Positions 9,413 to 44,460 of a DNA stretch of 64,000 bases are shown here, one piece after another. Below the pieces are notes generated by a model, which searched no databases, was not told the DNA's origin, and saw only the letters and a list, made by a program, of their open reading frames with translations. The translations under genes were made by a program, and so were the position numbers. Numbering within the stretch: position 1 is the first letter of the stretch; each line of letters starts with the position of its first letter. The DNA is from Branchiostoma floridae (Eukaryota > Chordata > Leptocardii > Amphioxiformes > Branchiostomatidae), in assembly GCF_000003815.2 (NCBI RefSeq), contig NC_049991.1, forward strand, positions 19,683,556-19,747,555, read 5' to 3'.

Positions 9413-9532
9413 GTATTATCCAGTCTGTGATCTGAGAGGGGCCGTCTAGGGCTGCGGAAATCGGCCGTCCATATCAGCCGTCGTCAACGTCTCACCAGTG
9501 CTTGGCTATCGCGTGACCCAGACAGGGCTAAG
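9413..9532 (+). other. 5' untranslated leader of the LRR-Ig gene (predicted)
   Basis: It lies between the predicted acceptor (AG at 9411-9412) and the start codon at 9533. The start context CTAAGATGG has A at -3 and G at +4, a strong initiation context. Confidence 0.4.
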
Positions 9533-11341
9533 ATGGAATTAACGGGAGTGTTCCTGGCCGTGTTGGCTCTGGACAGCGTTCTTGCTGTTGTGGGTGGAGC
9601 GGACGTGTGCCCCGAAATGTGCGTCTGCAACGACCAGAACAAGGTGGATTGCTCTAACAGGGGGCTGGACCAGATTCCCCAGGATATGCCCTACGCCTCC
9701 ACAACTCTCAGTCTGAACGACAACCAGATCAAGAGCATCCAGGAGGACCAGTTTGTGAACCTGAAGTCGCTGGAAGTGCTGCACCTCTACGCCAACAAAC
9801 TCACAGACATCCACTCCAAGGCTTTCAATGGCCTCACGCTGCTCAAGCGGCTGATTCTGTCTCAAAATCAGCTGAAGGAGCTACCGTTGGGGCTGTTCGT
9901 GGGCTTGGAGAATCTAGTCTGGTTGGATATAAGCAACAATCGGCTGCAAACTCTGCCACCGATGATCTTCAAGGACCTGTTCTACCTGGAATACCTGGAG
10001 ATATGGGGCAACCAGTTGAACTACTTACCTGAGGAAACCTTCAAAGGTCTTGAGAACCTGAGTTTGCTCATGATGGGGCAGAACAACTTCACGCGGGTGC
10101 CGAGCCTGGCTTTTCGATACCTCCCGAGTCTGTCCACGCTGAAAATGGATGGGCTTCTGCTCGGCAGGTTAGACAACGAGGCTTTCCAGTACGTCACCAT
10201 CCTGAGGGAACTGTACCTCGGAGGGAACCAAATCGCGTCGATCGGGAACGACACTTTCCGCAACCTCCTCAAACTGGAGTCCCTCGACTTGTCCAACAAC
10301 CAGCTGCAGACGCTCACCTTGAGCGAGAGCGCGCTCCCGAAGCTCCGGATTTTCGACTTGCACGACAACCCCTGGATGTGCGATTGTAGGCTGCTCTGGC
10401 TGCCTGGGTGGCTGAAGGGGCGCAGCTTGGCCGACACGGTCGTGACGTGCGGTCAGCCCAAGCCGCTGCAGGGTAGGAGGTTAAACAACGTTGCTCTGGA
10501 GGATTTAACCTGCCCGCCTCCTGTCATCAGAGTACCTCCAAATAGGAAAAGCGTCAAGGAAGGGGCGTCCATCGCTCTGCCGTGCGAAGCTAAGGGAGAC
10601 CCGCCGCCTACGGTGAGGTGGATTACGCCGAACGGAAAGAAAGTCACTTCCTCTAACAATGACCGCATGGTGGTCCTGGATAACGGCACCTTGTTTATTT
10701 CCAAGGCTACCCTGGATGATAGGGGGGACTTCACGTGCATCGCCGAGAATGTAAATGGTCAACATGACAAAGCTACGACTAAACTATGGGTAAAACCGAA
10801 GGGTGGCTTCATGTGGTCGCCCACGGGCGGGAAGACGGCCCCAAAGAAGGGAGAAACCACGTCCTCGCGGTTCCTATGGACAAACGTGGGGATCGGGATC
10901 GGCTCCATCGTGTTGTGCGTGGTGTTGCTGGTGGTGTGGAAGGTGATGAAGAAGAGGAAAACGCACAGAGACCGGAACGTCGACGCCAAGCCCATGACCA
11001 TGCGGAACGTTACCACGGTGTCCGGGGTGAGCGAGGTGGGTTCGCAGTACGTGAACCTTCCCGTCGGCTCCGGGATGGTCACCATCGACAGGGCGGGCAC
11101 CATCGACAGGAACCACCACCGCAACATCATCGACGGCACCATCGACATCACCCAGGACGAGAAGCCCCCCTACACCATCACGAACGCCGACGGACTGGGA
11201 CTCAACCACACCACAATGAACACGTTCTCCATGCCGGACATACACCAGCACAATAACGAAAGAATAAACTCCAGTCGAAGTTTAACGACCTTTTCCACCT
11301 TTGATAACGCAGAGTCAGGAAGTATGGTGGCGACAGTATGA
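9533..11341 (+). CDS. LRR-Ig single-pass membrane protein (LRRC4/LINGO/AMIGO-like architecture)
   Basis: An intact 602-residue single-exon ORF. Residues 1-23 form a signal peptide. An LRRNT cap has cysteines at 26, 30, 32 and 40. About nine leucine-rich repeats follow (about 57-275, e.g. LDISNNRLQTL at 131). The LRRCT cap has NPWMCDC at 279-285 and cysteines 306 and 327. A C2-type Ig domain spans about 331-420 (Cys351, Trp363, Cys402 with DRGDFTC). The membrane span is about 451-469, followed by a basic stop-transfer KVMKKRK and a ~130-residue cytoplasmic tail. Asn-glycosylation sequons are present (175, 185, 239, 384). The tail carries Tyr506 in YVNL, a Grb2-SH2-type pYxN motif. Proteins of this layout act as neuronal or epithelial adhesion and receptor-modulating molecules at the cell surface, and their coding region is often a single exon. 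I cannot assign orthology to one vertebrate family. The CDS is clearly more GC-rich than its flanks, which explains the long ORFs in its other frames. Confidence 0.95.
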   Translation: MELTGVFLAVLALDSVLAVVGGADVCPEMCVCNDQNKVDCSNRGLDQIPQDMPYASTTLSLNDNQIKSIQEDQFVNLKSLEVLHLYANKLTDIHSKAFNGLTLLKRLILSQNQLKELPLGLFVGLENLVWLDISNNRLQTLPPMIFKDLFYLEYLEIWGNQLNYLPEETFKGLENLSLLMMGQNNFTRVPSLAFRYLPSLSTLKMDGLLLGRLDNEAFQYVTILRELYLGGNQIASIGNDTFRNLLKLESLDLSNNQLQTLTLSESALPKLRIFDLHDNPWMCDCRLLWLPGWLKGRSLADTVVTCGQPKPLQGRRLNNVALEDLTCPPPVIRVPPNRKSVKEGASIALPCEAKGDPPPTVRWITPNGKKVTSSNNDRMVVLDNGTLFISKATLDDRGDFTCIAENVNGQHDKATTKLWVKPKGGFMWSPTGGKTAPKKGETTSSRFLWTNVGIGIGSIVLCVVLLVVWKVMKKRKTHRDRNVDAKPMTMRNVTTVSGVSEVGSQYVNLPVGSGMVTIDRAGTIDRNHHRNIIDGTIDITQDEKPPYTITNADGLGLNHTTMNTFSMPDIHQHNNERINSSRSLTTFSTFDNAESGSMVATV

Positions 11342-25777: not shown

Positions 25778-26014
25778 TCAGAAGATCTGTATAGTCCTTA
25801 TACTGTACAGACTTTCGTCTTGTTTCTTGGTAACCAGCGGTGCAGACTTGTCCTTGAGCTGGGCCAGGAGGGCGTCAAGGTCGTTCAGGCCCTGGTAGAA
25901 CTGCAGCCGCTGTCGGACGACCTCGTGTAACCCCAGCAGGACGTCACGTGACTCCGGTGTCAGCACCAGCTGGGTGAAGTGGGCATCCACAAGGGCACAC
26001 AGCCAGTCAACAAC
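25778..26014 (-). CDS. NOL11, last coding exon (C-terminal 78 residues and stop)
   Basis: Acceptor TTTATCCCAG then codons from 26014 down to a TGA at 25778-25780. The peptide begins VVDWLCALVDAHF, includes VLTPES and GLNDLDALL, and ends LYSIRTIQIF. From memory the human NOL11 C-terminus has MDWICLLLDANF, MMPEAK, ELNKIE and ends LYSIEVLELF, aligned at the same spacing; this is why I name it. NOL11 belongs to the t-UTP/SSU processome machinery, supporting rDNA transcription and early pre-rRNA processing in the nucleolus. The exon begins in phase 0, matching the exon at 29351-29437. The start of this exon (~20 bases) with its acceptor is repeated about a dozen times upstream, and the end of the exon is repeated downstream. 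Confirmation would be an alignment of the four-exon translation with NOL11 proteins. Confidence 0.85.
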   Translation of the reverse strand, partial: VVDWLCALVDAHFTQLVLTPESRDVLLGLHEVVRQRLQFYQGLNDLDALLAQLKDKSAPLVTKKQDESLYSIRTIQIF

Positions 26015-26650
26015 CTGGGATAAACAAATAAACAAATATACATAAACAAGGGCACACAGCCAGTCAACAACCTGGGATAAACAAATTAACATAAACAAGG
26101 GCACACAGCCAGTCAACAACCTGGGATAAACAAAAAAAAAAAAAAAAACAAGGGCACACAGCCAGTCAACAACCTGGGATAAACAAATAAACATAAACAA
26201 GGGCACACAGCCAGTCAACAACCTGGGATAAACAAATAAACAAATATACATAAACAAGGGCACACAGCCAGTCAACAACCTGGGATAAACAAATTAACAT
26301 AAACAAGGGCACACAGCCAGTCAACAACCTGGGATAAACAATCAAACAAATAAATAAACAAGGCACACAGCCAGTCAACAACCTGTGATAATCAAACAAA
26401 CAAAAATAAGGGCATACAACCAGTCAACTACCTGTGATAAACAAACAAATAAATAAACAAGGGCACACAGCCAGTCAACAGCCTGTGAAAAACAAACAAA
26501 AAAATAAACAAGGCACACAACCAGTCAACAACCTGTGATAAACAAACATAAACAAGGTCACACAACCAGTTAACAACCTGTAACAAACAAAAATAAATGA
26601 ACAAAAAGAGCACAAAGTCAGTCAACAACCTGTAACAAACAAATAAACAA
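26000..26650 (-). repeat. Minisatellite made of the NOL11 splice acceptor and first exon bases
   Basis: Thirteen units of about 45-58 bp, the first being the real exon start at 26000-26014. On the minus strand each unit reads pyrimidine-rich GTTTATTTGTTTATCCCAG then GTTGTTGACTGGCTGTGTGC. The eight units nearest the exon keep CCCAG; most of the more distant ones have ATCACAG. On the + strand the units show CAGCCAGTCAACAACCTGGG. The unit therefore spans the intron-exon boundary. Confidence 0.9.
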
Positions 26651-26661
26651 GCACACGCGCT

Positions 26662-26776
26662 GATACACACACACACACACACACACATACACATACACTC
26701 ACGCAAACACACACAGACACATACACTCACGCAAACACACACAGACACATACACACACATACACACACACAAACAT
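26662..26776. repeat. (CA)n microsatellite
   Basis: CA repeats with ACATACA and ACGCAAACA interruptions next to the minisatellite. ORFs over it are low complexity. Confidence 0.9.
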
Positions 26777-29350: not shown

Positions 29351-29437
29351 CTGGTCCACAGAGAGGACACTTCCATGTTGACCTTGACTTGGAGCAGGTG
29401 CAGAGGTCAACTTGTACTGCAGGTATCTAAGAAACAC
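29351..29437 (-). CDS. NOL11, penultimate exon (29 codons)
   Basis: Acceptor TTTTCTCAG ends at 29438 and donor CAG|GTGGGT starts at 29350. The 87 nt are open in phase 0 and encode VFLRYLQYKL...SVLSVDQ, continuing directly into VVDW of the last exon. The remembered human protein reads LFLKYLYFLYL...LNQ before IMDW, with the same order and similar length. The exon is too short to appear as a stand-alone ORF. It is separated from the previous exon by a 25.5-kb intron. Confidence 0.8.
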
Positions 29438-29559
29438 CTGAGAAAACAGAAAACAGAACATCAATGTCTTAAAAGATCAAGAGTAAGAGTAAGATTAAGA
29501 ATGTTTAGTAAAAATATTTTTTTATAAAGTGAAATTTGTGCTCATACTCCAAAACTGAA

Positions 29560-29935
29560 ACACTTTGACCAACATTAAGACAACGAGGGGGTAAGTAGTC
29601 ATCTATTGTTGACAGACGTATTAAATGTTTCAAATGACAATGATCAACTGTTACAATGCATTTAAATCAGAAACTTTCGGGACACTTACACTCCATTTCA
29701 ACTAACTACAAATGTGGAGGAAGAGGGAGATAAGAGTAAAAAATTCAAATCCTAGCCAGCAGCATTGCGGAGTTGGTTCACATGACAATGATCAATAATG
29801 CTTCTAAATCTGACACTTTTAAGACACTTACAATCCATTTCCACGACAACTATCTAGAGGATGATGATGGTGAACTAGAGGGGGGATAAGTAATTCAACA
29901 ACAGCTCAAATCCGTAGCCGGCGGTGTTGCGGAGT
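29560..29935. repeat. Diverged direct duplication in NOL11 intron
   Basis: Two to three copies of a ~165-bp unit with AATCCTAGCCAGCAGCATTG / AATCCGTAGCCGGCGGTGTT, TGCGGAGTTGG and TGACAATGATCAA. Older than the arrays further right. Confidence 0.6.
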
Positions 29936-30190
29936 TGGCTGTCAACCGCCAGCCCATGACACCCCCTCATCCCACGGCTTTCTCTAATGCAATATCAGCG
30001 GACAGCAGGAATCTCGCTGAAGCTGGCATCAAATTGCTTCCTGAAGAGACGCAAGCGGCTGGCGTACAGGCGCCGCTAATTGGGGAAATGTGCGATGTAT
30101 GTGGGGCAGAGGTCGCGTGGGTTGACTGAGAGCCGGGCAGGCGTGGGACGCGGCGTTAGGCCACACAAGTCTGGCTTTGCGGACGCCAGA
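29905..30190. promoter_or_regulatory. GC-rich unique island in the large NOL11 intron
   Basis: A block of balanced GC and high complexity (e.g. around 30000-30110). A 64-codon ORF there has no recognised motif or splice signals I trust. It ends near ACCACAAGTCTGATACAAGA, which recurs at 30570. Confidence 0.25.
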
Positions 30191-30800
30191 CTCCGAGGAC
30201 CACAAGTCTGATACAAGAGTGTGAGGAATAATGATTGAAGACCTTTATTGCACATTTTTGCCACAGCGGGCTAAGTACGTCAGGTAACAGCAGGACTTGT
30301 CGAAAAGATTCAGTTAACAGATAAAAAATGAAACTTAATCGTTGGATAAATTCGCTTTTCTGTTGTATAGTTGTGGTCTAGTTGTATTAAGAATATGAAT
30401 TTTCCTACAGCACTTAAGTGTATGAAATAAGGAAATAGGTTTTGTATAGCCTTACACGGTTCATTTCTTTCTACCATATACAATCTACACTCTACTTCAA
30501 AATGACATCCATCCTCTATTCTATCAAAATTACAATATTTTGCTCAGCTTCACAGACAGGCTCTCAAGACCACAAGTCTGATGCAAGAGTGAGGTGTGAG
30601 GAATAATAAGGTTGGGCTACTTTTCTCAGGAGGATTGAGATTGTTTTGACAGTTTCAAAAGGAGACTATCAATCAAGATATCCTCTCTCACAGAGGATTT
30701 AGGTCCCCTTTCCACTTGACGGCAATCGCGCTGTGCTCTCAATGAGACCTAAATAGGATATGTGTATCCTTTGCTTTCATTTTTTTCGTACTCTCCTTTT
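30191..30800. other. NOL11 intron with retroelement 3'-end fragments
   Basis: 30236-30290 carries GAAGACCTTTATTGCACATT, the complement of an AATAAAGGTCTTC retroelement 3' end that also starts the insertion at 35495. ACCACAAGTCTGAT occurs twice (30199, 30570). Otherwise nothing recognised. Confidence 0.5.
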
Positions 30801-31060
30801 TTTCGACAGATGAGCAGGCAAACAGGCATTTGCCGTTGGGTTCGGCAACCTGTTTGCCTGACCGGCACAGGACATTTTATGGTGAAGAAAGGGTGTGCAA
30901 TTCCTTCTCCACCCTCTCGTCTACTGGCGCACTAAGTCTCACAGGGACAAGAATTGCATGCCATGTGTACGTGAGGCGGCCCCAGCAGATACAGCTTTGT
31001 TGTTCAGAGTATCTCGTAGGAGGACTTTCGCACTTACGAATTTTGAATTCTTTTAAATGA
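30800..31060 (+). mobile_element. Dispersed SINE/retroelement body
   Basis: It matches 53330-53545 in the same orientation: TTCTCCACCCTCTCGTCTAC, CCAGCAGATACAGCTTTGTT against CTGCAGATGCAGCTTTGTTA, and TAGGAGGACTT. In the second locus it lies next to a tRNA-derived SINE. Confidence 0.6.
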
Positions 31061-32164
31061 ATCAGTGGTAAAAAGGCTTTATTTTTACAACCTTTTGTTT
31101 CCAACAGTCCTTCCTGAAAAGTCAGCTACATGTACATGACGTATATGCCCTGGGCATTTTTATGTGCATTTCCACTTCTCATAAATAACCTTTTCTTATT
31201 TTTCTGTCTTCAATTTTATCCTAACCATAACAAGACCCATCAAACAACTTACTGGACTTGGAAGGCCTAAAACAGATGCAGTTTTGCATGACGAAATCGC
31301 TTAACACTACATTCAACAGGTCTAATGGAATAAGGCGTTATACAGCTGCAAAGTGGCCTCATTATACAACTCACAACCTCTTCTCCCGCCCAATCTCACA
31401 CAAGGGGATGGAACAAGGTCACAACATCCGACCTTGCTATTCCAAGGTCACAGTCATGCAGGCAGAAAGATGATGAGGTGCGATGAGCGTGAGAGATGGT
31501 TGGACTGATGTGGGAATCGTCAAGTTTTCCACCCACTGACTTTGACCTTCAAGAAGTTTGAAAGGGTTCATAATGCTATACTTCACATCTATGATTTCTA
31601 TCATAACAAAATTATACTAGAGTATTGCTTTATCAAAGGAATTGAAACCAAACAGCGATAAAATGAAATATTCTATTTTTGCTTTTTCTTCAGTTGTTTT
31701 GATGCAGGAATTATCAACTTTTCTACCCACTGACTTTGATCTTGGAAGTTTGAAGGGATTCGTGAAATCATGCTATACTTTTATTATGTATTAGAGCATT
31801 GATTTTCAAGAAATTTAATGTATCAAATGTAGTGAAATGAAACCAACTAAGTATACATCCAACACCTCTGGGAAGACTATAATGGCCAGCTTACTCCAAA
31901 ACAGATCAGCCTGAGCTTGCTGGCAACAAAATGGACTCGTCTCAGTATGCGTGGAAGCTCACAGTCACCTGCCAAATGATGATAATGAAGCATTGATGAT
32001 GATGATGATGATGATGCTAGCTTGAAACTGTGACCTTTATGTGTGCAGTACTATGTTATATTTCCCAGATGAGTGACTGTGTACTACAGACCTGGCTGAC
32101 AGAGAAACCAGTCTGGAGACTAAGTCCCATTCCAATCATGCTCCTTGGAAATGTTGATGTTTGC
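31061..32164. other. NOL11 intron; small duplication and GAT microsatellite
   Basis: CCACCCACTGACTTTGACCT and CTACCCACTGACTTTGATCT with following bases (31530 and 31720) are a ~190-bp-offset duplication. 31978-32018 is a short (GAT)n tract. Nothing else seen. Confidence 0.5.
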
Positions 32165-33005
32165 ATCAGTGTTCTAGCCAGTCTGAATTTTTTTCTGTCC
32201 CTTGGACTTTGTCAGTGATTGCAATGGAAATTCTGTTGAAAGTGTAACAATCCTAGGGGGGTCAGGGACATGCTCTCCCAGGAAAATTTTGAAACCGAGA
32301 CCCTCTGATACGCAATTTCTTCTATTTTGAGGGGCAAGTTTTGTGGTCGCCATCAGCTTGGCTCAATTAATGTCTTTGAACGGGAAAACTTTTTCTCTGT
32401 CCCCAGCTGCAAAATTCTGTCAAAGGAAAGATGCTTGCTAGAAACCTGGCTTGCATCCCTCCCATGTTTAGTGCATGTTTGGAACTCCTGAAGACAAAGG
32501 GGTCTGGTATTGACCAAATGGTCCCTTAATATCGGAAGGGCAATAAACAGACAACATGATCGGTTTGTTCAATAATGTCTTTACATGCCGACTTTTGTCC
32601 TTGAACGGGCAACATTTTTGTCCATCCCCAGCTGCAAAAGAACCCTTGCTAGAATTCGAACCCTGGCTTGCATCCCTCTTATGTTTAGTGCATCACAGTT
32701 TGGAACTCCTGAAAACAAAGGGGGTCTGGTATTGACCAACACCCGCCATCCCCGAATATCGGAAGGGCAATAAACAGACAACACGATTGGTTGGTTCAAT
32801 TAATGCCTTTACATGCCGTTTGGCCTTGAACGGGCAACATTTTTGTCCGTCCCCAGCTGCAAAAGAACCCTGGCTAGAACCCTGGCTTGCATCCCTCTCG
32901 GCTGTGTTCATGTTTTGGAACTTCTGAAAACAAGGGGGTCTGGTATTGACCAAAACCCGCCGTCCCTGAATATCGGAAGAGCAATAAACTGACGACACGA
33001 TCGCG
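32165..33005. repeat. hAT-related fragment expanded into ~220-bp tandem units
   Basis: It opens with AGTGTTCTAGCCAGTCTGAA, like the hAT-type ends at 28083 and 34372. Then three units with GAACGGGCAACATTTTTGTC, CAGCTGCAAAAGAACCC, TGGCTTGCATCCCTC and ATATCGGAAGGGCAATAAAC (last motif at about 32531, 32757, 32971). Confidence 0.75.
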
Positions 33006-34371
33006 GACAAGAACAATCATGGCCCCCGAGAGGCTAAAGGGTATCGGTTACACCAACACGCAACATTGATATTACAATAAAAATTGCACATGCTTTCAGG
33101 TGCGACTTGGGGTCAAACCGAGGTCATTGATTTTTTCTTATCCTGACGAGTTTCAGCGGCGAAACTTACGGCGAGAAGGAAATTGGACGGTGAAGTTTCC
33201 CACTTGGCTGATTCAAATTAGCTCCTTGTTTCTCCAAATTAGTCAGTCTGATGTTAAACTTTGAAGAAAAAGCTAATAGCTGAAGGATACTTTCAAATTA
33301 TTAGCTATCATACAAATGCTAACGTTACATTTTATATAATACAATGCAAGTTAATGAGCTAGTTTTCTACACATGTACATTGCACACAATTATCACTACA
33401 TACTACATAAAGCTGTTACATTATTTCAATTGAATTGCAAGGCCTGGAGCTCTTAGTTTCTGGGCTTGAATTGCATTAGAGTCTGGACCACCAGCCAAAA
33501 TCACAATTATTTCTTATCATTATCAGACTAGTATCATAGTACATTAGATGTACAGTGTGTAGAGTCATTACAATGTACAAAGACTATCTAGTACTACACT
33601 CAAATGTCAAACCAAGGATCCTTAAGAATGTTTGAGATGATCTTAAAGAAAATTGTTGAACTTCAAGATGTTTAGAAATCCTGCACAAGTACAGTGCAAC
33701 TTCAAGATATCACAAGATGAAGTCAAGATCTGAAAAAAAATATGATTCATTTCCCGCATCCAGAAACCTGAAGAGCTCATTGTAGAAAATGGCAGAGTGG
33801 GTCGTTTACACTCCGGTGGATTTACAAGTCATTCCTCCTGATTTGAAGTTGACTGAAGATCCTGCACTTTTCCTACGGGGAAGTGCGTAAAATTTCTGTC
33901 AATACATTTTACGGCGCGGTAAAGAGCGGGCCAGAAACGTACTCTGGCAAAAGAAGATAAGATTTTTATTTCCATCCTGCTAGCTTGGATCATAAAAACC
34001 AAGCGAAGGCTGTGGCCTTGAAAACCCAATCTCTGGACAAGACATCAATTCTACACTTTAGTTCTCGTTTGTCAAGAGCAGGGCAACCTCATTTCTCCAC
34101 TATTAGATTCTCTTTTTTGGCTATTAGATTTTTCTTATTGGATCTGCGAGGAGGAGAGGTTGTTGGTCCGACAGGATGAAAAACGCTTTGTTCCCAAACT
34201 CCTGATTAAACCTACACTCCAGGAAGTTTCAATAAGAATGCAGCAAAGCCGTGACAGGAGAGATACACAATGTAAAAATCAAAGAGAGCAAAACATACAT
34301 GTAGAGAGACTGAAATGCACATTCCCAGTCAAACCATTTTGAATAAGACCATGAGATTGTATAAATGCAGT
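33006..34371. other. NOL11 intron, nothing firm
   Basis: 33830-33970 and 34130-34180 are higher-complexity patches that could be conserved non-coding sequence. No exon, array or inverted repeat recognised. Confidence 0.3.
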
Positions 34372-34690
34372 GTTCTAGGTAGCCTGAAATTTTTTTTCTG
34401 TCCCCTGGATTTTGAATGGAATTATCCTGTCAAAGGCGCAAAGAACCGAGGCAAGGGGGTTCTGGGGTATGCTCCTCGAGAAAATTTTGAAATCTAGACC
34501 CTCTGAAATGCTGTTTCCTTTATTTAGTGGGGCAAATTTTGCTGGTAGACTCAGCTTGGTTCAATCAATATCTTAACATGCCAATTTTTGTCTGTCACAG
34601 AGGATGAAATGAGCTTAATTTTTGTCTGTCTCCAGTATCAAAATTCCATCAAAGGACAGACGGACACAACCCCGTGCACAACCCATTTTG
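34372..34690. mobile_element. hAT-related fragment
   Basis: It begins GTGTTCTAGGTAGCCTGAAA and shares GAAAATTTTGAAATCTAGAC and TCAGCTTGGTTCAAT with 32280-32380. Ends are incomplete. Confidence 0.5.
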
Positions 34691-34850
34691 AATAAGACAT
34701 TGAAGTTTGTATGAATGCAATGGCGAGTGCCTCCTCTGATGTGCCCTGTGTTTTCAGGCATGCCAGCAGAGCATCAGGATCGTGATTACACACCGGCATG
34801 CACATGTAAGGTCGGATCAGCACAATGGACTCAGGTTAATACATGCAGGG

Positions 34851-35830
34851 GAGGGGCTCAAATAAGATTCGCACCATCGGAGAGACTAAAAGCTTCTCAA
34901 TCTTTTTAAGCACAGAGCTGCTTGAGCGTTCATAACATTTTACAACACAAGATATTAATGACAGGGTGTAAGGTGATTTTCAGGTTGTAACAATGGAGCA
35001 CAACTAGCTACAACACCTAATCAAGAGAGGGGCTCAAATAAGCTTTGCACCATCGGAGAGACAAAAAGGTTCTCAATTTTTTCATGCACAGAGCTGCTTG
35101 AGCGTTCATAACAATTCTTACAACACAAGATATTAATGACAGGGTGTAAGGTGATGTTTAGGTTGTTCCAATGCAGCACAACTAGCTACAACGCCTAATC
35201 AAAAGAGGGGCTCAAATAAGATTCGCACCATCGGAGAGACAAAAAGGATCTCAATCTTTTTAAGCACAGAGCTGCTTGAGCATTCATAACATTTTACAAC
35301 ACAAGATGTTAATGACGGGGTGTAAGGTGATTTTCAGGTTGTAACAATGCAGCACAACTAGCTACAACGCCTGATCAAAAGAGGGGCTCAAATAAGATTC
35401 ACACCATTGGAGAGACAAAAAGGATCTCAATCTTTTTTAGCACAGAGCTGTTCAAGCGTTCCAAACATCTTAGAACACATTTAGATATTAATGAATGAAG
35501 ACCTTTATTGTACATTTTTGCCCAAGCAAGCTAAGTACACTTGTGTCACAACAAAGACAAAACATGCATATAAAAGTATAATCTGTATCTGTACCTATAT
35601 AGCCGGTATATCCGCCCTTCGGCGTAACACACCAGCTTCGCAGGCACGTGGTGCGGCAGCAGCTGGTTATATTACACTGAACGATCCGTCACACCTAACT
35701 TGTATCACATATCTTAAGTCCAACACAGAAGTTTGGCTTCTTGATTAATGACAGGACATACATATGGTGATGTTCTGGGTGTAACAACATTGCAGCCCAA
35801 CCAGCTATAACAACTATATTCCATAGGCCA
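34851..35830. repeat. Tandem array, unit ~177 bp, four units
   Basis: Units start GAGGGGCTCAAATAAG at 34851, 35027, 35205 and 35381 (spacing 176, 178, 176). The fourth is interrupted at 35494 by a SINE-like insertion and resumes at 35752 with GGTGATGTTCTGGGTGTAAC. Confidence 0.9.
35495..35743 (-). mobile_element. SINE-like retroposon with 8-bp target duplication
   Basis: 249 bp inserted in the fourth array unit; ATTAATGA flanks both sides (35487-35494, 35744-35751). On the minus strand it ends in AATAAAGGTCTTCAT. The body holds CGTGCCTGCGAAGCTGGTGT and GATACAGATACAG, shared with 8690-8840. This copy defines the family boundaries best. Confidence 0.85.
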
Positions 35831-36325
35831 AGAAACAATCATAACAAATTCTCTCATTTCAAAAACAGCACCTTACCCTTTTGTATGTGTCATAATATTG
35901 TCACTCATGAATCAAGATTTTTTCTTGTCCCCCAAACGCTTTTAATATCATCTGAACTGAGAGAATTTGGTTAATTTTTTTTGGGTTAATTTTCTTTTTG
36001 GTTAATTTTCTTTTTATTCTTTGCCATTTTTAGACTAGAAGAGTACTGCTAGACTACTGGTATAACTTTTCCTCCCAGCATAAAGACCTGACTCTAATGA
36101 ACATGGATCTGCAGATGACCGGAATCTGCTGCTCACCAAACACCTCCACTGAACCAGGAAATTGAACCAGCGGCTCCAACCGGCAAATAACCCGTCTCCA
36201 TCGCGGAGAAATTGTGAAAGATGACGGGACGAGGCAATAGGAGGAGGGCACCACCGTATCCAATATTGTATTCCGTCTATAAAGAATACTGCCACCTCGG
36301 GCAGAGGTGCTAACCTTGAATTTCA
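35831..36325. promoter_or_regulatory. Unique island in NOL11 intron (36030-36310)
   Basis: AT-rich up to 36020, then a balanced, high-complexity block of about 270 bp. Two overlapping minus-strand ORFs of 86 and 90 codons lie in it without known motifs or clear splice sites. Possible conserved non-coding element. Confidence 0.25.
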
Positions 36326-36800
36326 TGCTATATTGTAAATAGGTCCGAACAGAGACCCAACTTCACTGTTGGCTGGAGGTGTAAGAAAAAAGAACAGTTG
36401 GATGTCTCTCTTAGAAGTTGTTTGTATTTAAGGTAACACTACTAAATTTCTTTGGTTCTCACACATACAAATTTGAAGTACAGATCAAGTAGGTTATAAT
36501 TGTAAACATGCTATATTGTAAATAGGTCTGAACAGAGACCCAACTTCACTGTTGGCTGGAGGTACAAGAAAAAAAAAAAACAGTCGGATGTCTCTCTTAG
36601 AAGTAGTTTGTATCTAAGGTATGAGGTTGATAATTTCATGCTATATTGTACTAAATAGGCCCGAATGGAGAACCAACTTCACTGTTGGCTGGAAATGTAC
36701 AGAAAAAAAAGAGAAGGGTGTCTATCTCTTAGAAGTTGTTTGTATTTAAGGTAACACTACTAAATTTCTTTGGTTTTCACACAATAGTACAGATCAAGCA
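36326..36800. repeat. Tandem array, three units of ~130-180 bp
   Basis: CATGCTATATTGTAAATAGG, CAACTTCACTGTTGGCTGGA and GATGTCTCTCTTAGAAGT recur from 36326, 36507 and 36638. The middle unit has a poly-A insertion. Confidence 0.85.
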
Positions 36801-37110
36801 GGGTTTAACAAGATTCTTAAAATTCGCTTGTCCTATTGGGCAAGACAAAAAAATCTACTTGCCCGAACTGACTTTTCACACCTGAAATTCAAAATTTTTC
36901 TACGTAGTACTACGTATCTTCACTTCCAGCAAAGGAATTCTTTTATCATTGGCGATATTTTTCTGTGTTGAACAATGCTTGATACCATGACTGTGAGATC
37001 CAAATTTGCAAGTCTGCAAGAGTGAAGACCAAGATTCCACAGGCCTGAAGCTACCAGGACCTTAGCTGCTTTCCTGAAAATGGTATTCAGGTAATACTAT
37101 ACATGTCTGT
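36801..37110. other. NOL11 intron, short foldback-related fragment
   Basis: 36815-36870 (GCTTGTCCTATTGGGCAAG) resembles the interior of the element at 44137-44293. Nothing else seen. Confidence 0.35.
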
Positions 37111-37111
37111 T

Positions 37112-38510
37112 ACCAAAGCTTGAGTGTGACACTCAACAAAAGATTGATTCAGATTGAAGCTAATGAAACTTTTAACGAGCGTATAACATTGACAGAATGA
37201 GACAGAATGAGAAGTGCATAACGAGACACTGCAAGAGTGAGGACAAGGATTCTTCTAGGCCTGGAGCTGCCCCCACGAAAATAGTATTCATGTATGTGAG
37301 CAAAGCTTGCGGGATGATGCTCAAGACAAGATTGATGAGTCTCTGTCTGACTATCAACTCTCCTCTACTTCGCTCTTGTTCTTTTCTTGGAGCTGCAAGC
37401 CCCCAAAACATGTGAATGCCTGCCGATATAATCTGTTAATTTTTTAATCGATCATGTATATGTAACAGCAAAGATCGTGAGATGACGCTCAAGACAAGAT
37501 TGATGAGTCACCGTCTAGCTATCAACTCTCCTCTACTTCGCTCTTGTTCTCTTTCTGGACTTGCAAGCCCCCAAAACACGTGAATGCCTACCGATATAAT
37601 CTCACTGTTAATTTTTTAATCAATCATGTATATGCTAAGCAAAGATCGTGAGATGACGCTCAAGACAAGATTGATGAGTCTCTGTCTGACTATCAACTTT
37701 CCTCTACTTCGCTCTTGTTCTTTTCCTGGACCTGCAAGCCCCCAAAACACGTGAACGCCTAGTACCGATATACTAGTATTCTGTTAATTTTCTAATCGAT
37801 CATGTACCCGGTATATGTAACAGCAAAGATCGTGAGATGACGCTCGAGACAAGATTGATGAGTCTCTGTCTGACTATCAACTTTCCTCTACTTCGCTCGT
37901 GTTCTTTTCTTGGACCTGCAAGCCCTCAAAACATCTGTCAGTGAATGCCTGCCGATTATCTGTTAATTTTTTAATCGATCATGTATATGCTAAGCAAAGA
38001 TCGTGAGATGACGCTCAAGACAAGATTGATGAGTCTCTGTCTGACTATCAACTCTCCTCTACTTCGCTCTTGTTCTTTTCTTGGACCTGCAAGCCCCCAA
38101 AACACGTGAACGCCTGCCCATATAATCTGTTAATTTTTTTACAAAAAAATGCAATCGATCATGTATTATATGTAATAGCAAAGATTGTGGGATGACGCTC
38201 AAGACAAGATTGATGAGTCTCTATCTGACGATCAACTTTCCTCTACTTCGCTCTTGTTCTTTTCTTGGACCTGCAAGCCCCGAAACACGTGAACGCCTCC
38301 GATATAATCTGTTAATTTTTTAATTGATCCAACTGACTTTTTTCAGGTCCCGGTTTTTCTGGATTTGTCCAACACGAAAAAAACGGTTTAGTACCGGTAC
38401 ACATGCAGTAATGGTACCCACCACTAGTACAAATGTATTCAGGTATATGTGAGCAAAGCTTGCAGGATGACACCCAAGACTAGATTGATGAGTCTTCGCC
38501 TGTCTGAGTT
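37112..38510. repeat. Tandem array of chimeric non-element/hAT-like units (~170-184 bp)
   Basis: AGCAAAG unit starts lie at 37300, 37468, 37639, 37823, 37994 and 38178. Each unit joins ~55 bp of CTCAAGACAAGATTGATGAG sequence, also present at 38454-38505 outside the element, to ~120 bp (CTCTACTTCGCTCTTGTTCT ... GTGAATGCCTGCCGATATAA) that matches the interior of the hAT-like element at 4384-4480. The last unit runs into that family's right end, TACCCACCACTA, at 38426. No left end is visible. Confidence 0.85.
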
Positions 38511-38930
38511 TCTCTCCGCTGTCGGCTGGCGAATGAGCAACCATCAATCTTCAGAAATGTTGCCAAGAGCTGTTACCTGCTCTTCTGACGGGGGATAATG
38601 ATACAAAATTGTCACACCCCGAGGTATGTTTCTCTAAGTCCTGGTATTTAGGGAGCTTCCTGTCAAGTCTCGTGAGGTACATCGGACTTTAAGTATGGTA
38701 TTTAAGATGCCTCACGTCTTGAAGTCGCTGGGGAGATGGTCTTTATGATAAGTCATTTCCTTAAGACTTTGCCATTTCTTACACCTATCCATCACTTTGC
38801 TTAGGCAGCATCAACAAAGTTAACTGTTTCTTGGACTTTGGGAGTAAAGAAACTACTTGAACATAAAAAATCTTAAAACTTTGTATGCTAAAAAAACACT
38901 GTATTTAGGTTCATTTTCACTCTTTAATTA
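38511..38930. other. NOL11 intron, nothing recognised
   Basis: No supported feature. Confidence 0.35.
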
Positions 38931-38936
38931 TAATTA

Positions 38937-39143
38937 CTGTAATTCACTTTGTCTTCTCGGTACCAAACTTTCACGGTCTGAAAAAATCTAACTTGTTCTC
39001 GGAACTAAATGTTCACTGTCGCGGCAAGTGCACATAAAAAAAGTCTGTGAATCATTTGTTATCAGTAATGATAAGTTCACGTTTCAGTCGTCACCGTGAA
39101 AACCGTGAACATAACATTACATTGAAAAAATCAGGAATTAAAG
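38937..39143. mobile_element. 207-bp MITE with TA target, copy 2
   Basis: Same length as, and inverted relative to, 1634-1840. The left end is CTGTAATTCACTTTGTCTTC; the right end is GGAATTAAAG with one decayed position. Flanked by TA. Confidence 0.75.
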
Positions 39144-40018
39144 TAATCACATTTTGCAGTTAACAGAGAAAAGATATCAAAGGTGCAGGGAATGCTAAAC
39201 TTTGCAACTAGCAAGCAAACACCTTGCCAAACTACTATACACACAAACTAATGTACACCACCCTTCAAATGGGACATAAAGCCGTAGAACCCAAATTTGA
39301 GGACAGCCACACCTCAAGCATGTCAAACATCATACATGTACCACACAAAAACGTGCTTCCTGCTGTGAGTGGACAATACCTTACAGTCTGATCTTATGCA
39401 GCTTGCAGTTACCTAACATGTAAGTCATCCTTAATACACCCAAAGGTGGTTTATTACTTAGTACATGTATCTGAAAGAAACAAAACAAGTACCTTACATG
39501 GCCTTGTCAAATATGTATGCCACAGGGAGGGGGGAACACTCATAATGGACTCTAATCCTTGCACTGTCATAAAACTGACAAGCAGACAGCCAGCATCCTC
39601 CATCACACCACCTCGGCACAAAAGGCCATCCATAGATGGGCCTTACATGCCGGGGAATGCCAAGGACTTGCTGTGATGGAAGTGTCTCGGGGAATCCTTT
39701 CTTTAGGTGAAGGAATTGTTCCGAAGGTGTTTATGATACTTCAGGGGTGCCAGGTGACCTTCTAGTGTAGGGACAATTCACAAGAGTTTTGTACAAAGAC
39801 TTGCCATGTAGGGATTGGTGTGAACGTCATGTCTGAAATTTGTTACTAGTCTTGCTTCAGGGGCTTTTAAGTTTTATGATCATGACTTTGCGTTATTTGA
39901 GACAAAGCAAGAAAACTTGTAATGTAGTGCTCTGGCAGACAGCTACTCAATATTGAACTTTGGGATTGGTGTGAGAGTCTTGTTCAAGTCATATCTTACT
40001 TCTGAGTTGTTCTAGTTT

Positions 40019-40022
<4 letters not shown>
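39144..40022. other. NOL11 intron, nothing recognised
   Basis: No supported feature; 39540-39680 is slightly GC-richer. Confidence 0.35.

Positions 40023-40102
<80 letters not shown>
40023..40102. repeat. (TA)n microsatellite, ~80 bp
   Basis: Uninterrupted TA dinucleotides. Confidence 0.99.
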
Positions 40103-40106
<4 letters not shown>

Positions 40107-40429
40107 AAAACAGATACAAAATAAAACTATTGTAATATGGTTAGATAAAAAACTAGCCGTGTAGGGATTGATGCGAACATCTTGTCTTGCTTCAGGTAAA
40201 GAGGTGCTTTAGTTTATGAGTTGGCAAAGTAAGAAGACTTGAACACATACAGAAATGTTCCAGAAACAAACACAATTGAGAGCTAATCAGAACTGGAACT
40301 GGACTGCCTAACATATCAAAGGTGCTTGAGTGTTGTAGGTGACAATTTGTACAAATGCAACTCCAGCACACAACAACAGCACATCTGATTCTGTTATAAT
40401 CTGTCACAGGCTCAGCCCCCTACTAGCCC

Positions 40430-40740
40430 CCGAGCAATCTCACAGTTACACGGGCCATTTTCCAGGGCCGGCACGAGACGACTAATACATTCAGCAAGCG
40501 ACTTATTGGCACCGCCATGCATCAAGACAGGCGGGGCCATAAAGCGAGTCCTAATTCATAGACTCCCTAACTCCAGATGTCACGCCAGTACATTCACATC
40601 GTGACCTCTCTGACCTCCAGCCACGGAACCCTCCACACAATGGCGGCTGTGCTGCAGTGGACAATGTAACCATCACTTAAACGTGGGCTGCAGTGCCTCG
40701 ATCGATAACTGGCCCGACGCTGCACTCCAGACCATGGTCA
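40430..40740. promoter_or_regulatory. GC-rich unique island in NOL11 intron
   Basis: A balanced, non-repetitive block containing GGGGCCATAAAGCG and CCATGCATCAAGAC, with no splice-flanked ORF. One of the stronger candidates for a conserved non-coding element; inference only. Confidence 0.3.
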
Positions 40741-40755
40741 TACCAACATCATATA

Positions 40756-40934
40756 CTGTAAATGCAGAAATTCTTGCGGTGTTATAATGTTTGCAGTTTT
40801 CCCAGTGGCCGCTTCACCGCAATCATTTTTCCATGGCAGTAGGAGACGAGACTAGAGTATGTGCATGGTGCTACCGCTAACTTAAAACCACCGCAAAAAA
40901 TCCCTTTTCCTAGCGAACTTTAATACATTTACAG
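40756..40934. mobile_element. MITE with TA target, CTGTAAATG ends
   Basis: 179 bp. The ends CTGTAAATGCAG and CATTTACAG are flanked by TA; inner inverted blocks include TTGCGGTG and CACCGCAA. Tc1/mariner-like by target. Confidence 0.75.
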
Positions 40935-42200
40935 TACATGTACACTGTATGAAGTCTCTCTCTATAAATAGATCTAAAAAAGAAAACGTCACGTGACCCG
41001 GCTGCCAAAGTTTAACAGCGGAGTGAATCAATTGCGCAGTTGCATCTGTGCCGAACCAGGGGTCGACCTGGAAATTGCAGTCGCCATTACAGTCCCTATT
41101 TTATTCATCCAATTGTAGAACAAGCCGTTAAGATGCCAGGCCAGATCCTTGGGCACCCCTTAAAAAGCCATGAATAGTTTTCCGGCGAAATAACCGCAGC
41201 TACTTCTGAAACTCTCCAGCCTTTGAGTGGGACGATAAAACATTGTTTTTAACTCGTCTGACAAATGTAGGTCCTGATTAATGATTAAGGATGGGAGTAT
41301 AACTATAAGTTCTGGCAGTCATGAAAAACTGTGCAGAAGACTACAAAGAACAGTTGTAAACATCAGTGTGCTGGGAGACAGGGGGCAAATGCCGGTGTAC
41401 TATATAAAGACTGGGAATAAATCTATGAAAAAACAAGTGTGAATGCTGGTAGCTTGTTAGAAGATTGGGTCTAAATGCTGTCATGAAAACTGGGTGTAAG
41501 GTTTGTTGAGAGAGTTGCTGAATAGAATGGCATGCTAATTCATCATACTTACTGTATATTACTCTGTAAAACTCTACAAAGACCAGTACTACAATGTAGT
41601 TTGAATAATGTTTTACAATCTTGTTAACGAATCAAAAGATTTGTTGTGATTGCTGTTAAATATCATCGGTCTCAATCTACATTGTCTGCTTAATATGAGA
41701 TAGTAACTGGGCGCAAAATTGGTTTATCTTATTTTACATTGACTTATGTCACTATGATTTTGAGTTTACACTAATATGTTATTTTAAAGTCATAATTTGT
41801 TGACATATATTACCAATTGTAAAACTCTGCAAACAAAAGCACTGGTTTAAGTTATATGATCGTGGGCTGCCTACCCTTGTCACTTGCCTGGGAACTCAGC
41901 AGCAGTTACAGTAATTATTAATTAATAACTAAAAATAAAAGACAGCCACTTTTCACACAACACAAAGCTTAAAGTGCCGCTCTCGTCTGCGTGACCTGGC
42001 GGTATTGACGAGCCTCCATCAGTGTAAGATCATGCATCATTTGCCGGTGGCGGGAGTGCCCGAACGAGAGAGACCGGCTGCAAGCAAACAGTGCTCTCGC
42101 CAGGCTTTTTTTATCAGTTTAGGTGCCTCCTTCGCTGTGATTTGGATCCCCTACGCTGTGATTTGGATCCCCTACCCTGTGATTTGTGCCCCTATGCTGT
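40935..42200. other. NOL11 intron with two unique patches
   Basis: 40980-41190 and 41990-42190 are higher-complexity non-repetitive patches; the second has a small TGTGATTTGGATCCCCTA tandem. The rest is AT-rich with nothing recognised. Confidence 0.3.
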
Positions 42201-42814
42201 GGTTCAACCAGCTGTTGTTTTATAACAATGGTAAAAAAATGTTGGCTTTATTTCACTAAATTTGGCCTGGAAATTAATATAAGTGTCTTTGAGGGTAACA
42301 AATTCTAAAAATTTCAGGGGAAGTATTGCCCTGGACCTCCTAGAAATGTCACTCCAACATTGCTTACCATATGGCTTTGCTGGATTTTAAAGGATGACCC
42401 TATTCTGTGAAAAAATTCTGGTGAGAACATTGGGAACAGATTGCCGTGAGGCAGGAACATGCCGCTGCATTGATGCACCAGAAATGACAATCACCCCAGG
42501 TAACACATGGCTGTTCTGTCTGATGGACAGCCTCCCTGAAAAATGAGTTGTCTAGGCTGTTCTATGTAATAACATGTCCCACAGCAAAAGACCAAAATAA
42601 ATGTTTATATAGTAACCACTATCTTTTATAACTGAAGAGATCTGGTAGAAACTGGTTTTCTCCAGTTGCTTGTCTAATGAGTATTACTAATTAACTGCTT
42701 GTTGGAATATCTTATTCCCTGGATGTCTAACCTTCATCGACATACCAATAATTGTAGCACAGTGTCTACTGCATAAGAAATTCAGCAATTATTAAATGAC
42801 ACATCACTGAGCGT
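42201..42814. other. NOL11 intron, nothing recognised
   Basis: No supported feature. Confidence 0.35.
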
Positions 42815-43030
42815 TAGGCACGTTGTGTGGCAGCAGCTGGTTACATCACACTGAACGACCTGTTACACCTAACTTTTGCACATCTATCTGCAAATTTTCT
42901 TTCAATCTATCTATGAAAATGGCCCTTCTGTGCTTGGCAATAACAAATTCCACTCTACGATAGTTTTGGGAATTTACAAATTTTTTACGCAGTCATCAAT
43001 CATAGGTTGGCAACTCTAGTACTTGAAGGC
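42815..43030 (+). mobile_element. SINE-like repeat copy
   Basis: It contains GTGGCAGCAGCTGGTTACAT and CACTGAACGACCTGTTACAC (as in 35640-35690), then the CCACTCTACGATAGTT block of 14890-15015. This copy shows that those two blocks belong to one element. Confidence 0.6.
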
Positions 43031-43200
43031 AACAGAGTGAATAACATAATGAAATTTTGTACTTTAAAAATTTGTTCAACGCAATGCAAAATCAATGACA
43101 CAAGCAAAAGCAAAAGAATACCATGAAGGTCAGAAAACTATTAAGAACAGTAGGAATGAAGGAGAATTCTTATTACACAACCAGTGGGGTACTTTACATT

Positions 43201-43240
43201 GCTTACGTTTCGATGTCTCTCAGACACCTTCGTCAGAGCT
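43201..43240 (-). ncRNA. Hammerhead-ribozyme-like core, consensus-like copy
   Basis: On the minus strand: CTGACGA, one A, a 7-bp helix II (GGTGTCT with AGACATC, one G-T pair) closed by GAG, then GAAACGTA. CTGANGA and GAAA are the catalytic boxes of the hammerhead, and helix III would be the minimal AC/GT. Deviations are the extra A before helix II and a helix I of only about 3 bp (GCT/AGC) next to the cleavage site. Activity is not proven. Confidence 0.5.
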
Positions 43241-43412
43241 TCTAACTGGAGTTCTGCTTCTCACCGCTATATGTAGCCGATGTAGGTGGCCCCAGTGATG
43301 AACAGGGACGAGGGGGGATACAAGCTAAGCCACATTTGGGACTGTTTTCTCACCGCAAAAGCGCCACCTACATCGGCTACATATAGCGGTGAGAAGCAGA
43401 ACTCCAGTTAGA

Positions 43413-43452
43413 AGCTCTGACGAAGGTGTCTGAGAGACATCAAAACGTAAGC
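43413..43452 (+). ncRNA. Hammerhead-like core, second arm, probably inactive
   Basis: Inverted copy of the core at 43201-43240. CTGACGA is intact, but the GAAA box reads AAAA because position 43442 is A. That position corresponds to G12, the general base of the hammerhead, so this copy should be inactive. Confidence 0.45.
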
Positions 43453-43499
43453 AATGTAAGTACCCACTGGTTGTGTAATAAGAATTCTCCTTCATCCTA

Positions 43500-43964
43500 T
43501 ATTCTACCAACCTGATGAAACTATTTTCGGTATTAAGAACAATAATCGAAGGCTTAAAGAAGTAGCTTTATCCTAGCTAACACAGCCAAACAGTTAAGGC
43601 TTACAGCGACGCCAAGCCCAAATCTATCTCTGTGCACGTATGGATTTAGTCAATAAAGTAAACTTTGGGTCCCTTAAGTCCCTTCAATGCTGCAAACTGC
43701 AATTATGGCAAAAACAACAAAACTTCTGAAAGAAAACTTTTTAGGCAATGAAATATATACAGTGTGGTGAAAAACCGCCCAGTTTATATGTACCAGATCG
43801 TAAAGCTGACTGAAGAAGGTAAATAATTAACGTAAAATCATTAACGGTCGGTAGAAAACTAGCTTCTCGTAACCTGTGGGCTGTAACGATCATGAGCATA
43901 AAACGACTCTGAGCATTTTCATTGATCAGATGAACAACACGCTAAGATAAAACAACGTGATTAT
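43500..43964. other. NOL11 intron, nothing recognised
   Basis: No supported feature. Confidence 0.35.
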
Positions 43965-44460
43965 AGTAGTGTGGGTGGTGTCGTGTCTAGTGAACTTGCT
44001 CATAGGCCAGGGGGTCTACAGTCTTAATTCTGTCTTCTGGCACATCCTTGGATTGCAATTGATACAACTGAATACAACTGTTACTGTGTAACAGCAGTTT
44101 TAAGTAGTGAGTGCTGTTCATTGTACTAGTTGAAAACAGGGTTGGACAAGTTTTCTAACATCATTCTATTGTGTAGGTTTTCTAGAAAAATCTTATATGC
44201 CCAATCGGGCAAGTGAGATTGGACATGCGCTTGTCTGATCGGCATTTTCACTTGCCCTCTGGACAATAGGGCTGGTGGACTTGTCCAACCCTGATTATAA
44301 CATTAGTGTGGGTGGTGTAGTGTCTAGTAACCCTGCTCATAGGCCAGGGGGTCTACAGTCTTAATTCCATCTTCTGGCACACCCTTGTATAATTGCAATT
44401 GATACTGAATACTACAGCAGTTATAAGTAGTGAGTCCTGTTCATCGTATTAGTTGAAAAT
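43965..44460. repeat. Direct duplication (~170 bp) flanking a foldback element
   Basis: GTGTGGGTGGTGT through AGTGCTGTTCATTGTACTAG (43968-44130) recurs at 44302-44455 with few changes (CATAGGCCAGGGGGTCTACA in both). Confidence 0.8.
44137..44293. mobile_element. 157-bp foldback element, CAGGGTTGGACAAGT ends
   Basis: The ends CAGGGTTGGACAAGT and ACTTGTCCAACCCTG are perfect inverted repeats, with inner GCCCAATCGGGCAAGT palindromes. It lies at the junction of the two copies of the 170-bp duplication. CAGGG ends suggest hAT, but no 8-bp duplication is visible here. Confidence 0.7.

Follow-up and report, generated by a model that had tools for sequence, protein, structure and literature searches.

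In amphioxus, minisatellites that duplicate exon-intron boundaries are known as 'mirages' (Ebner et al., 2010, PMC3087553), and they have been described in Adh3 (Canestro et al., 2002, as cited), in the globin genes BflGb6 and BflGb9 (PMC3087553), in PGBD5 and, as cited with the latter, in TnC (PMC3902484). They come in 3' and 5' forms, retain an AG or a GT in many of their units and are unstable in copy number; the units measure 10-72 bp in Adh3 and about 150-160 bp in BflGb6, where two haplotypes hold 6 and 3 of them, and it has been proposed that mirages seed new introns (PMC3087553). RT-PCR suggests that the genes concerned are spliced regularly (PMC3087553; PMC3902484). The array described here, before the last exon of NOL11 in Branchiostoma floridae, resembles these cases in that its repeat unit spans the exon-intron boundary (26 exon nucleotides, a T-rich tract and CAG), in that it lies on the intron side and in that the AG is retained in 12/12 decoys, and the same genome contains further mirages in globin, CCT-family, UMPS-like and proteasome genes. 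It differs from the BflGb6 haplotypes in the number of its units (12 decoys versus 6 and 3), and whereas the boundaries of globin mirage clusters are described as excluded from homogenisation (PMC3087553), the true NOL11 boundary lies within an exact 145-bp repeat.

NOL11 is thus a new gene for a known lancelet phenomenon, which had been named and documented in several genes before, a point on which the preliminary description of this locus was silent; the altered splicing of NOL11 suggested there is conjectural, and the reports on other mirages point to normal splicing. Among the matches listed for amphioxus or lancelet minisatellites and splice boundaries, titles and abstract beginnings contained neither a genome-wide survey of mirages nor a case in NOL11. 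Two other systems bear comparison. Tandem acceptors of the NAGNAG type and similar ones offer several acceptors per exon a few bases apart; NOL11 likewise has several acceptors, in units of about 50 nt that copy tract and exon together. A human interferon-induced gene, presumably IFI6/6-16, is said to carry a minisatellite that gives multiple splice donor sites (the report of Turri et al. from 1995); judging by that title, a minisatellite supplies multiple splice sites in both genes, donors in one and acceptors in the other.

The array lies in a 64,000-nucleotide stretch of genomic DNA (the window). When the two exons flanking its intron are joined, they align with human NOL11 (structure 7mq8; E 1.5e-11) and exceed the cut-off of the Pfam family Nol11_C (31.9 versus 25 bits), and the junction VDQ/VVDWLCALVDAHF meets the human ...LNQIMDWICLLLDANF / NQIMDWICLLLDANF with 0 residues inserted. 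Protein homology thereby supports 26014 as the exon start, where the preliminary description had placed it. The penultimate exon is bounded by CTCAG/GTG at its acceptor and CAG/GTGGGT at its donor, and its first residues align weakly with human NOL11. The 513-Mb genome contains one Nol11_C match and, among the scored candidates of the DNA search, one full-length match to the NOL11 locus; of the eight loci found by searching with the array DNA, six (L003-L008) were dropped, since they matched only query positions 3-67, the (GT)n end. Frame scans of 29400-44399 returned no upstream NOL11 exon via PDB sequences (three frames) or via Pfam (two of the same three), each with a query of about 5000 residues, long and noisy and hence insensitive, and a guessed exon at about 34.8 kb gave no alignment when joined to the last two. 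In the window, Rfam gave 0 matches at gathering score and ARAGORN 0 genes. The plus strand holds a 636-residue open frame at 9431-11341 in which leucine-rich repeats, a stretch resembling an Ig domain and a putative transmembrane segment were noted by eye, and at 40022-40102 AT is repeated about 40 times without interruption.

TRF called the array twice, at 26028-26649 (period 49, 12.3 copies, 81% matches) and at 25989-26555 (period 106), and a scan of the minus strand for an AG followed by an exon-like start gave 13 CAG/G sites, namely 12 decoys and the true site (Table 1). The minisatellite of decoy acceptors is therefore real, and the gene, exon and acceptor named for it, as well as the estimate of about twelve near-copies, were right. 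The unit indeed combines pyrimidine tract, AG and coding bases, though the coding part is 26 nt long rather than the 20-24 first given; CCCAG, ascribed earlier to the eight closest decoys, is found in six decoys and the real site (7 of the 13 sites, from 26328 to 26014), the others reading CACAG (four) or TACAG (two). The exon block carries 1-4 edits in each of the six distal decoys. T makes up 51% of the array versus 22% of the exon body.

Table 1. Features of the NOL11 boundary array, and mirages at other exons of the same genome.
Feature	Position	Strand	Remarks
Last NOL11 coding exon (VVDWLCALVDAHF...RTIQIF, stop)	25778..26014	-	Alignment to human NOL11 7mq8_LI; Nol11_C
True acceptor AG of last NOL11 exon	26016-26015	-	Exon start 26014
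Penultimate NOL11 exon, 87 nt, phase 0, donor CAG/GTGGGT	29351..29437	-	
Mirage array: 12 decoys, unit length 45-57 nt, exon block with T-rich tract and CAG in each	26015..26649	-	
Decoy exon starts, distal six	26629, 26577, 26532, 26482, 26431, 26382	-	
Decoy exon starts, proximal six	26328, 26279, 26222, 26173, 26120, 26071	-	
26-nt exon block recurring in decoys	25989..26014	-	Six nearest decoys 26/26
145-bp segment including true splice site, identical to 26197-26341	25989..26133	-	Exact repeat, shift 208
Exact copy of 25989-26133, containing decoy 26222	26197..26341	-	
Nearest decoy junction	26071..26073	-	AG 26073-26072, exon-like start 26071
Second frame-keeping decoy	26173..26175	-	AG 26175-26174
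(GT)n-rich microsatellite adjoining array upstream	26665..26775	-	TRF
UMPS-like exon (MSAHHDVPMLIRRKEAKDYGTKK...), 18 acceptor and 21 donor decoys	L002, G000:C4:3605083-3608380	-	
CCT-family exon (PF00118), 13 donor decoys, 67-bp spacing, exon end and AAG/GTAGG	L043:4024-5015, G000:C19		
Proteasome exon (PF00227), at least 3 full acceptor decoys, 136-142-bp spacing	L065/L067, G000:C156, to contig end 913760		

We consider it very probable that this is an amphioxus mirage at the last intron-exon boundary of NOL11, in which 26014 is nearly always used and the decoys are mostly ignored. Use of 26014 is most likely in view of the protein homology and of the published RT-PCR on other mirage genes, and the site would be preferred because it is the sole acceptor joined to the real exon body. 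Against this reading stands decoy 26222, which matches the true site in the 119 nt before and the 26 nt after the junction and is locally indistinguishable from it. On the view that the first AG met in scanning is taken, a decoy would be favoured over the true site. Since the identity extends over 145 bp, short-range signals cannot tell the two apart; if splicing is regular, the choice would have to be set beyond them, by the exon body and the way it is connected to the 3' end. The branch point of the true site may now sit in the copied exon of a decoy, since YTNAY motifs occur in the exon block, which in each decoy contains TTGAC or TTAAC 38-50 nt from the next AG. A role of the decoys as recursive (ratchet) splice sites was considered and rejected on account of their weak regenerated donors: AG/GT is present at 11/12 decoys, 26482 lacking the GT, and CAG/GTTGTT (10/12 decoys) scores -1.5 bits and the donor at 26431 2.7 bits versus 5.7 for the gene's own donor.

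It is unlikely, in our view, that the decoys are used to the extent that array length would govern alternative splicing of NOL11, giving truncating and in-frame (+19, +53) isoforms in proportions that depend on repeat number. The array does look equipped for such use: CAG/G is retained in 12/12 decoys, YTNAY branch-point-like motifs are present in every unit, and 26660-26015 is free of AG between the acceptors save for one that adjoins decoy 26431. Two decoys, moreover, are open to the native stop: 26071, which lies 57 nt upstream and would add 19 residues (VVDWLCALVYVYLFICLSQ), as had been noticed before, and 26173, absent from the preliminary description, which lies 159 nt upstream and would add 53. 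The remaining 10/12 run into a stop upstream of the true exon, so that 3-49 residues would replace the last 78 and the conserved C-terminal domain would be truncated; the distance to 26014 is a multiple of three in 5/12 decoys, with no excess of frame 0, and published mirages are reported to splice regularly. If, as we favour, the spliceosome nearly always picks 26014, the decoys would be ignored or used at a low level, yielding small amounts of C-terminally truncated protein from ten of them and of protein with an in-frame insert of 19 or 53 residues from the other two.

The same architecture recurs in other genes of this genome. An exon that we take to belong to UMPS surfaced through T-rich similarity in the search with the NOL11-array DNA, its minisatellite being unrelated to that of NOL11. 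Upstream of this exon, CACA/GTAAGTACC units form one more array, which may be a donor mirage belonging to the exon before it. One globin exon is preceded by three acceptor decoys spaced 154-158 bp apart, in keeping with BflGb6 (150-160 bp), and another has a duplicated donor, in keeping with BflGb9 (PMC3087553). Directly behind this duplicated donor stand 100 N (L057:1922-2021, G000:C7), where a mirage is possibly incompletely assembled or masked. The proteasome array, at an exon presumably PSMA5-like, reaches the contig end, and a related copy 110 kb away (L066) has one decoy at 82 bp; the two copies, which may be paralogues or haplotypes, are 76-95% identical in their matched pieces, the longest piece of at least 90% measuring 277 bp at 91%. 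Among the 82 of 86 CCT matches covered by a scan (the other four lie in two genes with long open frames), with match edges standing in for exon edges, 0/82 had acceptor copies and 2/82 donor copies, namely the 13-decoy array and one single extra copy. This is a rough lower bound, because the detector undercounts: on the positive controls it recovered 4/12 NOL11 decoys and one copy at each of the UMPS-like sites. Boundary copies were present at 2/12 globin matches; the proteasome mirage was noticed in a match table, outside any survey of proteasome exons.

The AG or GT is retained in 67/67 decoys of five arrays (12 decoys in NOL11, 18 at the UMPS-like acceptor and 21 at its donor, 13 in CCT and 3 in globin), which is not what neglect and free drift would most readily give. 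The share of adjacent column pairs that are just as invariant across the decoys is 0.31 for NOL11, 0.46 and 0.17 for the UMPS-like acceptor and donor, and 0.70 for both CCT and globin; the product of the five, 0.012, is descriptive, the arrays being few and non-independent. Since the arrays were chosen post hoc, the copies picked by similarity and the units within an array are non-independent, we read this retention solely as no sign of selection removing decoys. The retention may stem from homogenisation combined with constraint on the true site. A very unlikely alternative is that the decoys are kept by selection, the array being a working part of the acceptor, so that the number of repeats would adjust how housekeeping genes such as NOL11 are spliced; its role would then be that of an extra tract and branch-point platform, or of a buffer of spare acceptors.

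That misassembly inflated the repeat number seems highly improbable to us. The exact 145-bp repeat could stem from a block duplicated during assembly, and a mirage is described as aberrantly assembled in an earlier genome draft (PMC3087553); the units, however, vary in length and in letters, the distal ones most, the locus has one full-length match among the scored candidates and Nol11_C one match in the assembly, and the architecture is shared with other genes. Tandem arrays as such are common in the window, 11.3% of which lies in TRF arrays, but an unrelated intronic minisatellite landing beside the exon can be dismissed, as the unit includes 26 nt of conserved exon in register with CAG, and chance does not account for a conserved coding block copied twelve times in register.

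As for how the mirage arose, we infer that an early single tandem duplication, by slippage or unequal exchange, placed the intron end and 26 exon nucleotides on the intron side, and that unit-by-unit and block duplications, the latter with the 208-bp shift, then led to 12 decoys, the block step taking in the true boundary. The array would persist solely on the intron side because the protein would suffer if units spread into the body of the exon. An origin by microhomology between GTGTG--CTTGT upstream of the array and GTGTGCCCTTGT at the end of the exon block was rejected, 112/500 shuffles reaching its score. Heterozygosity in sequenced amphioxus species is given as 3.2-4.2% (PMC12500494; PMC12862219), from which 4.6-6.1 differences per 145 bp would be expected at allele-level age; as 0 are observed between the block copies, the block duplication probably postdates typical allele divergence, or its copies have been homogenised, in so far as one sequence can tell. 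The suggestion that repeat number may vary between individuals receives indirect support from this exact duplication, from the unequal proteasome copies and from the published globin haplotypes.

The identity of decoy 26222 and the true site over 145 bp makes NOL11 a natural experiment in how a 3' splice site is chosen: if splicing is regular, it is the real exon body nearby that decides, and the local motif does not. With the UMPS-like, CCT and proteasome cases, mirages look more widespread here than the few published examples considered would suggest. Such a spread would make gene prediction error-prone in this genome and would offer a test of the proposal that mirages seed introns (PMC3087553).
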